Shown here in pieces: positions 11,959-14,897 of a stretch of 37,800 bases of DNA. A model generated the notes under the pieces. The model saw only the letters and a program-made list of their open reading frames with translations, had not been told where the DNA came from and did not search any database. Made by a program: the position numbers and the translations under genes. The stretch covers positions 1-37,800 of the forward strand of contig JAJZJL010000034.1 in NCBI GenBank assembly GCA_021810145.1. The letters run 5' to 3'. Positions within the stretch are counted from its first letter, which is position 1. Each line of letters begins with the position of its first letter. The DNA is from Planctomycetota bacterium (GTDB lineage Bacteria > Planctomycetota > Phycisphaerae > WQYP01).

Positions 11959-12072
11959 GCATCCTGCGCGTCTCCTGAATCGTGTTACCATCACACGCCT
12001 TGGAATGCTGCCGAGGTCCGGCTTGTGTCGCAAGATAATGGTAATTAATTGCAGACTAATTTTTTACAGCCT

Positions 12073-12124
12073 AAAAAAAATATAATTTTTTTCTTGACGC
12101 GCACGGGGGGGGGCGCGGTATACT
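12073..12124 (+). promoter_or_regulatory. Putative sigma70-type promoter with A/T-rich upstream element; G9 tract in spacer
   Basis: A8-TATAA-T7 upstream; TTGACG 12094-12099; TATACT 12119-12124; 19-bp spacer containing G9 at 12105-12113. Confidence 0.6.
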
Positions 12125-12130
12125 GCCGTT

Positions 12131-12392
12131 TGTCGTAAATCATTGCTCGGCAGCGGGGTCCATTGGAATGCTGCGGAGCGGGGTAAGGTAACAACCTGAT
12201 CAGGGGGGCAGAGAATCGTGACTGGGTGCGGGCGTTGTGGAATCACAATCTCGGCGAGCCGGTGGGTTGATCCCACCGGTAATCATGCTGCGAGCACCGT
12301 CCCGCTGCGCCGGGACGGCGGTTTGTACCATGCGGGACTCGTGAACCCGGATGGTAACAGCATTCCGGGCTTCTAACGCATCGGATTCAGCG
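12131..12392 (+). ncRNA. Putative structured 5' leader RNA (cis-regulatory or stand-alone)
   Basis: Inverted repeats at 12145-12154/12170-12179, 12235-12239/12244-12248, 12259-12266/12272-12279, 12297-12304/12311-12318 and 12326-12336/12346-12356. Confidence 0.5.
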
Positions 12393-12905
12393 ATGAATGC
12401 ACGTACCAGCAGAATTCTGATTCCGTTAGCCGCGGTGGTGTTCGTGGCATCGCTGGTTGGTCTTGGCGTGTCCGTCACCAAGCTGTTCTTCAGTTCCCAC
12501 CCGCCGGCCGCCGTTCACATAGCCGCCGGCGGTACCGCACCCGCGAAAGCGCTGCTGGCGTCGCTTGGAACAGTCCTGTTTGCCCGGGTAGGCGGAGGAA
12601 ATCCGCAGTCGGCCACGGAATGGAACGGAATGTATAACTGCCCAGCTAATACGTCCTGTGGAGCCGTGCCATGCCCGCATCCGTCATCCACGGGTTCGTG
12701 TGGAACCTATGTACAGTCATTTTTTATTGGCTCAATATGCAAACCCAATAACAGCGGGACGGACTCGTCGTGTAGCTACATCGGCAGCCCGACGGAATGC
12801 TCAGCAGTTTTTAATTGCAACTACGAACCCTATGACGGCCAATGTGATCCCAACGGAAGCCCTACCGGGTCGTACGTCTACGGGCAGCAAGTGAACTGCG
12901 ACTAG
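12393..12905 (+). CDS. Small exported cysteine-rich protein (10 Cys in the C-terminal half)
   Basis: MNARTSRILIPLAAVVFVASLVGLGVSVTKLFF followed by CPANTSCGAVPCPHPSSTGSCGTY...CKPNN...CSYIGSPTECSAVFNCNYEPYDGQCDPNG...NC. Confidence 0.65.
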   Translation: MNARTSRILIPLAAVVFVASLVGLGVSVTKLFFSSHPPAAVHIAAGGTAPAKALLASLGTVLFARVGGGNPQSATEWNGMYNCPANTSCGAVPCPHPSSTGSCGTYVQSFFIGSICKPNNSGTDSSCSYIGSPTECSAVFNCNYEPYDGQCDPNGSPTGSYVYGQQVNCD

Positions 12906-13042
12906 ACACCCGTGGCGTCGGTGGCTGGGCGGTGCATTGGAGCCACTGAGGCTGCAGCATGGAGCCGAGAGCGTTGCCGGGCGCGGCGGGTGGTTTTTGG
13001 TGAGGAGTCAGGAAAATTGGATATTTACCTGGGAGGATGCGA

Positions 13043-14095
13043 ATGGCAATTTCCGTGAGGATTAAGCAAATCCGAGAGTGGGGGGGCAGCAAATTCTGTA
13101 TATATTTCCTGATCAGCGCGGCAACGCTGTCCTTGCTGGGACCACACGCTCGGGCCAGCACTGCGGTGGTTAAAGATGAACTGCTGAACGCGCTTCACGC
13201 GCTGCGGCAGGCGGTCCGCTCCAGGGTAGTGTCTGGTTGGGGCGTCGCCGTGGAGAAAACCACCGACACCCAGTGGTACGGGCACGAAATGCGCGTCCAC
13301 TATCAGCCGCAAACGGTGAAGTTCTGGTTTTCCGGTAACGCGAGCCTGGCAAAAGAGTACAGCTCAGGCCATCCGCCGGTGCTGCTTCAGGCGGCACTGA
13401 GAAAAAATGGAATACTGGCCCATTTCCGTCGTTACAACATGGGGTTAAAGCTCGCAGCACCGCAGGTAACTATTATTGGTGGGGTGTTGCCCCATGTGAC
13501 CAACGATCTGCGCCCAACCGTGTGGACATACCGCCGGATTTCAGAAATTTCCAGTGTGATGCAGCCCGATGCACAGTTCTTTCGGATAGCGGAGCGCCAA
13601 TCGGCGGCAACCGTCAAGAATACCGGCCGCCGGATTATCGTAACTTTCAGGTACCCGCCGAATCCGCCGAGCTTCTTCGGCGCGAAGGCGGTGATCGTGT
13701 TCGACATGATGCGCGGCGGGATGGTGGCAAGCTACTACAACATGACCGACGAACTCAATGCAGCCCGACACAGGCTCAAAGAGATCGATACCATCACAAC
13801 GAGGTGGCGAAAAGTGGGCGGTTGCTGGGTCCCGGTCAGCAGAACGCTTGAAAGCCACTACTGGGTTAGCGGCAAAGACCGTGGATTTACACGTACAAAT
13901 ATCAGCTTTGTGAAATTTGTTCTCGGTCCTCTTCGCAATGACATTTTGAGCGCCAGCAACTTGGGAATCCCGAATGGGACATTCGTGGACGACACGGTGC
14001 ATAAGGAATTATACCATTTCACCGAGGCTGCCGCATCCCGCATTTTTGGCACGGCGAAACACAACCCACCGCGGCAGTCGGAGGGTGTGAAATGA
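13043..14095 (+). CDS. Exported protein of unknown function (possibly LolA-like fold)
   Basis: GGGAGG at 13031-13036 ahead of ATG 13043; signal peptide-like ISAATLSLLGPHARAS; long beta-rich-looking sequence. Confidence 0.7.
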   Translation: MAISVRIKQIREWGGSKFCIYFLISAATLSLLGPHARASTAVVKDELLNALHALRQAVRSRVVSGWGVAVEKTTDTQWYGHEMRVHYQPQTVKFWFSGNASLAKEYSSGHPPVLLQAALRKNGILAHFRRYNMGLKLAAPQVTIIGGVLPHVTNDLRPTVWTYRRISEISSVMQPDAQFFRIAERQSAATVKNTGRRIIVTFRYPPNPPSFFGAKAVIVFDMMRGGMVASYYNMTDELNAARHRLKEIDTITTRWRKVGGCWVPVSRTLESHYWVSGKDRGFTRTNISFVKFVLGPLRNDILSASNLGIPNGTFVDDTVHKELYHFTEAAASRIFGTAKHNPPRQSEGVK

Positions 14096-14586
14096 CCCCG
14101 CTCCGCTATTTCGCTTTTACAGGGTGCCTGTTCACCCTCGCTTATCGCCACGGGGTGGCGTGGGCCTCTGTACTTGGAAGGTGTTTGCTTGGCTCCGTTT
14201 TCGTAGCTGCCGCAATATTCAAATGGCGCGACATGAGCCAAGGCCCAACGTTGTACGGCAGCTTGGCACCAATGGGAATTCATCTGCCCGCGCTGATCAT
14301 AGTTGGTGAGGTATTCCTCGGGCTTTGGTTGTTGTCAGGTATGGCTAGGGGTGCCGCAGGCTTCAACGGCGTTCTCACGCTCTCATTATTTACCGGTGCC
14401 GTAATTTTTGACATGCTCCAGCCACACCCAATCCCGTGCCGCTGCATGGGCGCGGCCTATGTCGCCGCGCACAGCCCCGCTGCCGTGGAGCGAGGGCTGG
14501 CTCTCGGCATTGTGCGAAACGTGATGCTGGTCGGCCTGGCTGCAACGGTTTGGCTTTCTTCAGGCGGCACACGTGCCTGCACCTGA
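14092..14586 (+). CDS. MauE/DoxX-family-like redox-associated membrane protein
   Basis: Multi-helix ~160 aa protein with FVAAAIFKWRDM, IIVGEVFLGLWLLSG and PCRCMGAAY; ATGA overlap with the upstream stop. Confidence 0.65.
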   Translation: MTPLRYFAFTGCLFTLAYRHGVAWASVLGRCLLGSVFVAAAIFKWRDMSQGPTLYGSLAPMGIHLPALIIVGEVFLGLWLLSGMARGAAGFNGVLTLSLFTGAVIFDMLQPHPIPCRCMGAAYVAAHSPAAVERGLALGIVRNVMLVGLAATVWLSSGGTRACT

Positions 14587-14897
14587 TCTTTTCCGTCAGG
14601 GGCAGTTCCCATGGGATATTCCTCAGCACGCCACGATGGCTCCAACGCATGGCCGGTTCGCGCAAACGCCCACAGTTGGCCAACGGCACAACCAAACCGT
14701 TATTACTGCGGCTACCGGCAGGCCGGCCATGAATGCGAGTTGGCTCCACGAGAACCGCGCGGTGGTGAATTCTTGAGCGCATCGGCGACACGGAAGCTTT
14801 GGGGTTACACTTCGGGCGGGTTCGGCTTGAAACATTGAAGCGCTGCCTGGGAGTGCCGCCTTTCTGAATTCTGGAAATATCTTATGATGACCGGAAT

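Follow-up and report, generated by a model that had tools for sequence, protein, structure and literature searches.

A recurrent Planctomycetota-family operon pairing MauE with a fast-evolving secreted Cys-rich protein, and its probable rearranged copy

The window (the whole stretch of 37,800 nucleotides analysed here, on a contig that is part of a 4.47-Mb genome) carries a locus that is probably a rearranged copy of an operon recurrent in a Planctomycetota family, which would make and fold a fast-evolving secreted disulfide protein. Judged from its sequence, the locus is a chimeric, shortened derivative of a larger operon and not an ancestral three-gene system, because ORF A and ORF C are both fusions and a thioredoxin remnant follows them. 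The first-pass annotation had described a candidate three-gene system, in which these fusions and the remnant were absent. That description needs changing, since the usual operon also has a propeller gene and frequently includes a DUF1573-like gene and a MauE that carries a thioredoxin domain. The features of the locus are the following.

12039-12573, + strand: repeated block of promoter, leader, and ORF A codons 1-60; 535 bp, 95.5-96.8% identical to the copies on C19 and C54
12094-12099 (TTGACG) and 12119-12124 (TATACT), + strand: promoter-like hexamers with a 19-nt spacer, kept in five leader copies
12254-12279, + strand: REP-like dispersed palindrome in the leader; six genomic copies within two mismatches
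12393-12905, + strand: ORF A, 170 aa; ten Cys, all past the hydrophobic N-terminus; fusion of a propeller N-terminus and a 10-Cys core
13037-14095, + strand: ORF B, 352 aa; exported, hydrophobic N-terminus; ortholog of the gene after the G001 Cys-rich gene
14092-14586, + strand: ORF C, 164 aa; polytopic, PCRCMG motif; DUF1573-like start (~aa 1-17) and short MauE (~aa 23-164)
~14597-14746, inside ORF 14573-14776, + strand: C-terminal thioredoxin remnant of a MauE-thioredoxin (MauE-Trx) gene, found by profile and tblastx

The basic layout described earlier was present in full, namely three same-strand ORFs, ten cysteines in ORF A with a hydrophobic N-terminus, the ATGA overlap of ORFs B and C, and the PCRCMG motif. 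The Pfam search assigned ORF C to MauE (PF07291) with 46.7 bits against a curated cut-off of 27 (residues 24-155), which bears out its reading as MauE-like. The protein has four hydrophobic segments, and a CxC at 116/118 lies between the third and the fourth. ORFs A and B had no family match in Pfam and nothing significant in NCBIfam. The Cys-family profile matched ORF A with E=4.5e-6 from position 28 on. ORF B has a 35% identical paralog on contig C142 of the window genome; its profile comparison with the ~350-aa proteins of other operons gave 2%, and its predicted model (pLDDT 37) was unusable for the fold. A plasmid search with ORF C returned no matches, and a PDB sequence search with ORF A, ORF C, MauE-Trx, and the Cys family returned nothing meaningful.

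The fusion in ORF A joins a propeller N-terminus (aa 1-59) to the 10-Cys core (aa 59-170). Residues 1-59 are 93-95% identical to other ORFs in the window genome (95% to the C19 propeller), and aa 59-169 are 80% identical to the G001 Cys-rich protein, which bears a signal peptide of its own. This G001 ortholog keeps all ten cysteines, and the core has a dN/dS of 0.17, which mostly reflects the time before the fusion. ORF B is 72% identical to its G001 ortholog, the next gene after the Cys-rich one, with a dN/dS of 0.29. ORF C begins with ~17 residues that, at the protein and DNA level alike, correspond to the start of the G001 DUF1573-like gene; over aa 23-164 it shows 59-64% identity to short MauE proteins from G005 and G002. 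The thioredoxin remnant was detected by profile (E=1.3e-5) and by tblastx (39-47% identity, E down to 2e-9). The window locus mixes both recurrent operon layouts, the MauE-Trx type and the short-MauE type.

The repeated block connects the locus to propeller genes. The C19 copy is the 5' end of a 1024-aa beta-propeller protein (Reg_prop, E=3e-18), and the C54 copy is the 5' end of a truncated 260-aa propeller version. Diverged forms of the leader precede propeller genes of 993 and 1008 aa in two sister genomes. The window copy has the family's secreted Cys-rich protein upstream of the exported protein and MauE; of the full propeller gene at the head, only the 5' end is left, fused to ORF A, and of a MauD-type thioredoxin partner only the C-terminal remnant. 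Differences from the C19 and C54 copies are scattered along the whole block, so the window block looks like a third real copy and not an assembly misjoin. For the same reason, an assembly error as the origin of the chimera is not favoured. A further fusion was observed on C54 (L029 10473-11966, G000:C54), where a MauE N-terminus is joined in frame to the operon's ~350-aa exported protein beside the truncated propeller.

One alternative takes the window locus as a relic, in which recombined operon copies have left fused frames that no longer cooperate, and the intact operons elsewhere in the genome are the functional ones. The two fusions, the loss of the DUF1573 body, and the thioredoxin remnant fit this alternative, and so do C54, with its truncated propeller and its fused MauE, and the short-MauE remnant present on C19. 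However, the three frames are open, both fusions are in frame, and the promoter hexamers and the start codon are retained. The ten cysteines and the CxC are also retained, and the dN/dS values of the ORF A core and ORF B are low, although they mostly predate the fusion. We consider a relic somewhat unlikely and retain the rearranged operon copy as the preferred reading, although a copy with several parts gone may be non-functional.

The upstream region had been described as a strong-looking promoter with a structured leader. The promoter hexamers are common to five leaders, including those of two sister genomes, and the paralogous leaders also share the ORF A start at 12393. However, a standard sigma-70 scan did not report the window hexamers due to the 19-nt spacer. 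The leader folds with an MFE of -112.4 kcal/mol against -101.6 +/- 4.8 for shuffles; this z = -2.3, like the neighbourhood counts given below, rests on metagenome-type fragmented assemblies. A structured leader is consistent with this value, but a dedicated RNA element is unsupported, as no Rfam covariance model matched the leader at the gathering threshold, nothing relevant appeared at E<=5, and part of the leader is the REP-like palindrome. A riboswitch was rejected on the same grounds, and the leader copies are either too similar or too diverged for covariation. The palindrome GCGAGCCGGTGGGNTNATCCCACCGG (window 12254-12279) is itself family-wide and dispersed, with many sites in sister genomes in mixed contexts; its reversed control pattern had zero copies in the genome versus six for the palindrome.

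We then considered the wider family. PF07291 matched in 27 of the 28 family genomes, above the cut-off in 24. About 60 MauE neighbourhoods were fetched, and their genes were labelled with profiles built in this analysis. In the first layout, a propeller gene (~1000 aa) is followed by a Cys-rich gene, a ~350-450-aa exported protein, a DUF1573-like gene, and MauE-Trx. In the second, the propeller and Cys-rich genes are followed by a different ~350-aa protein and a short MauE. The thioredoxin domain is fused to MauE in most sister operons. The DUF1573 label denotes profile similarity seeded by the G001 gene; against the Pfam DUF1573 family, one labelled member scores weakly and another exceeds the cut-off. 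Thirteen genomes from six genera hold operons that include the Cys-rich gene, and profile matches add three genomes. Recurrent small Cys-rich ORFs beside homologs had been proposed as a check on the earlier reading, and the genes indeed co-occur.

The scan around MauE took small ORFs within 7 kb that combine a hydrophobic N-terminus with six or more cysteines. Forty such ORFs lay on the MauE strand and one on the opposite strand; in a few rows of this count, a single ORF is matched to two MauE pieces. Among MauE genes with more than 3 kb of upstream sequence, a Cys-rich ORF was present for 22 of 31 operon-type genes versus 3 of 18 others (Fisher p=3e-4), and for those three (L107, L145, L148) the operon genes lie slightly further off. 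None of the stand-alone MauE-Trx genes of 310-320 aa has operon partners nearby. The propeller was found at E<=1e-40 in only two further genomes among 294 sampled across the phylum; both distant matches are without MauE and Cys-rich neighbours, and an operon outside the family was rejected.

Unrelated small secreted Cys-rich ORFs were also observed beside MauE in other families of the class (L195, L198, L206, L209, L212, L214, L215, L218). Within 3 kb, eight pairs were on the same strand and two on opposite strands (p=0.055), which is no more than suggestive, and the MauE/Cys-rich pairing may therefore be much more general. Two other kinds of neighbour were noted. A sigma-70-type (ECF-like) sigma factor gene, possibly the operon's own regulator, lies just upstream of the Cys-rich gene at L034 560-1744, L111 40-1056, and L112 7833-8879. 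Prepilin-like genes follow MauE at L034 5851-6516, L103 6358-7410, and L107 6462-7454; such genes are common in Planctomycetota, so this link may be due to chance.

The Cys-rich proteins share a leader with an approximate consensus of AAAVCAAGL..G.GG..LLAQ, and mean pairwise identity is 40% in the leader versus 23% in the core, or 14% in the core without the shared cysteines. None of them matched a Pfam family. The number of cysteines after the signal was even (6, 8, 10, 12, or 14) in 27 of 27 members, including the window protein, with signal boundaries drawn by eye, a choice that matters for the C19 and C21 proteins. The resulting p=7e-9 assumes independence and is optimistic, as the members are partly related. 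This parity matches the prediction of full disulfide pairing. CxC or CxxC clusters are rare among these dispersed cysteines. The mature part of ORF A has one Trp, and several other cores have none.

The conserved leader and the hypervariable core could also describe a RiPP-like or bacteriocin-like precursor with a core that undergoes modification and release, MauE being among the modifying enzymes. In Streptomyces, candidate RiPP clusters likewise pair mauE/mauD homologs with precursors of at least eight cysteines (PMC7794033). Nevertheless, the leader here resembles an export signal, unlike a cytoplasmic RiPP leader, and the even parity is compatible with plain disulfides. Among the labelled operon genes, there is no recurrent peptidase, transporter/exporter, or other modifying enzyme. 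A RiPP-like system is, in our estimate, improbable.

Among the redox proteins of the operon, all 25 MauE-Trx proteins share CGCFG, CxxC, and a proline at the cis-Pro position without variation, and CxC is invariant in 12 short MauE proteins. In a predicted model of MauE-Trx (pLDDT 79), a thioredoxin domain comes after the membrane helices, and this domain model matches ResA, DsbE, CcmG, and DipZ (probability 1.00, E 1e-3 to 1e-2). Since ResA/CcmG-like domains are able to work as reductants too, the sequence does not fix which way the electrons run. The short-MauE operons examined showed no thioredoxin gene immediately after MauE.

Other MauE neighbourhoods contain larger Cys-rich proteins. In the same genome as the window, L099 4369-7758 (G000:C7) encodes, in order, a Cys-pair protein, MauE, a MauD/thioredoxin-like protein, a Tat-type 19-Cys protein, and a 376-aa exported protein. 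The spacing W..CC, CC..D, WC..YxC of the 19-Cys protein recalls the methylamine dehydrogenase light chain, and Pfam and PDB searches with it returned nothing significant. L145 2286-5738 and L148 2484-5936, from two sister genomes, encode a Tat-type 17-Cys protein, a 381-aa exported protein, MauE-Trx, and a second Cys-rich protein. The 17-Cys protein scored sub-threshold against PF02975 (E 4.2 alone), and this module is possibly a divergent dehydrogenase-like one. Light-chain homology of the Tat-type proteins in L099 and L145 was rejected, as the scores were sub-threshold only.

The operon as a whole also holds mau-type parts, that is, a propeller, a disulfide-rich small protein, MauE, and a thioredoxin. 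It could thus be read as a methylamine-dehydrogenase-like periplasmic oxidoreductase, with the propeller as large subunit, the Cys-rich protein as small subunit, and MauE-Trx as MauE plus MauD. However, PF02975 was above the cut-off in none of the 28 family genomes, the Cys-rich cores were unmatched, and the propeller is of the Reg_prop type. Moreover, a light chain carries two tryptophan tryptophylquinone (TTQ) tryptophans, against the one Trp of mature ORF A, and in the several cores without any Trp, this cofactor is impossible. Such an enzyme appears distinctly improbable. Finally, metal binding by the cysteines (metallothionein-like or sensor-like), kept reduced by the MauE/thioredoxin proteins, would suit the high Cys density and the reductant capacity of ResA/CcmG-type domains, but strict even parity over very different cores fits pairing, the cysteines are spread with few CxC/CxxC clusters, and the protein is exported to an oxidising compartment, which makes this reading very unlikely.

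For the preferred reading, a folding operon with a rearranged copy in the window, we propose the following mechanism. In the usual form, the beta-propeller protein and the small Cys-rich protein would both be exported. MauE, whose CxC lies in a loop with a predicted outward orientation and which in most cases carries a fused thioredoxin domain (CxxC, cis-Pro), would withdraw electrons from the newly made cysteines and deliver them into the membrane, which would let every cysteine of the Cys-rich protein pair. The exported ~350-aa and DUF1573-type proteins may serve in the periplasm as partners or carriers. All that would remain of the propeller gene in the window copy is its promoter, its leader, and an N-terminal membrane segment, which would now drive and export the 10-Cys core, and the DUF1573 gene would have shrunk to a start fused onto short MauE. 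As the thioredoxin domain of the window is a remnant, any thioredoxin step must come in trans, presumably from C19, C54, C121, C21, or the stand-alone gene on C173.

MauE is probably the dedicated periplasmic oxidative-folding partner of the Cys-rich protein. This role, already suggested by the first-pass annotation, withstands all three refuting conditions given there, in view of the co-occurrence of the genes, the family assignment of ORF C, and the conservation of the cysteines. The architecture, the fusions, the conservation, the cysteine parity, and the redox motifs are observed in the sequences, whereas we infer oxidative folding, the direction of electron flow, the topology, the partner roles, and the expression of the window copy. 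More tentatively, and with less than even confidence, the family might constitute a diversity-generating secretion and folding system. Across multiple operon copies, an unchanging export leader and an equally fixed MauE-thioredoxin oxidase would then serve a hypervariable, fully disulfide-bonded protein working with the large propeller, and promoter-leader-signal cassettes would be copied between loci into new fusions. The window also illustrates the way in which these operons evolve, with a copied promoter-leader-export cassette placed on new cargo. MauE is a widespread family, and the operons make its disulfide role directly testable, since they offer dozens of natural pairs of MauE or MauE-Trx with hypervariable even-Cys substrates, and the stand-alone MauE-Trx genes in the same genomes are natural controls.

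Comparison with known systems places the operon near several of them. NVEALA-type proteins of Bacteroidetes are short, exported, and Cys-containing, with a conserved leader region and a variable remainder, a description that the Cys-rich proteins share; however, the latter have no Pfam family match. In Dsb/VKOR systems, a membrane redox protein with a Cys pair works with an exported thioredoxin-fold protein. The operon would be a functional analogue of this arrangement, but it uses the MauE family, not DsbB/VKOR, and would have one dedicated substrate per operon instead of a general system. In the literature searched, we found no description of the operon and no mention of NVEALA.

The mau cluster likewise combines a MauE-family protein, a thioredoxin-type partner, a small exported disulfide-rich protein, and a beta-propeller, and MauE and MauD are required for the maturation of methylamine dehydrogenase, as cited in PMC7794033 (van der Palen 1997). 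The role of MauE in disulfide formation or electron transfer is still termed speculated there. The operon differs from the mau cluster in its hypervariable small protein without a PF02975 match above the cut-off, its Reg_prop propeller, its additional DUF1573-like and ~350-aa exported proteins, and its fusion of MauE with thioredoxin.

The operon is previously undescribed in the literature searched, whereas MauE beside Cys-rich precursors has already been proposed in Streptomyces by decRiPPter, where mauE homologs adjoin precursors with at least eight cysteines and precursor modification was suggested (PMC7794033). Like the operon, those clusters place a MauE homolog next to such a precursor, accompanied by MauD in one family, and hold no other mau genes. 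The operon differs in its phylum, its conserved four to five genes with a propeller, its signal-type leader, its MauE-Trx fusion, and its even Cys number in 27 of 27 members. With its parity signature and its more extensive conserved gene content, it carries the MauE/Cys-rich idea from Streptomyces into a different phylum.
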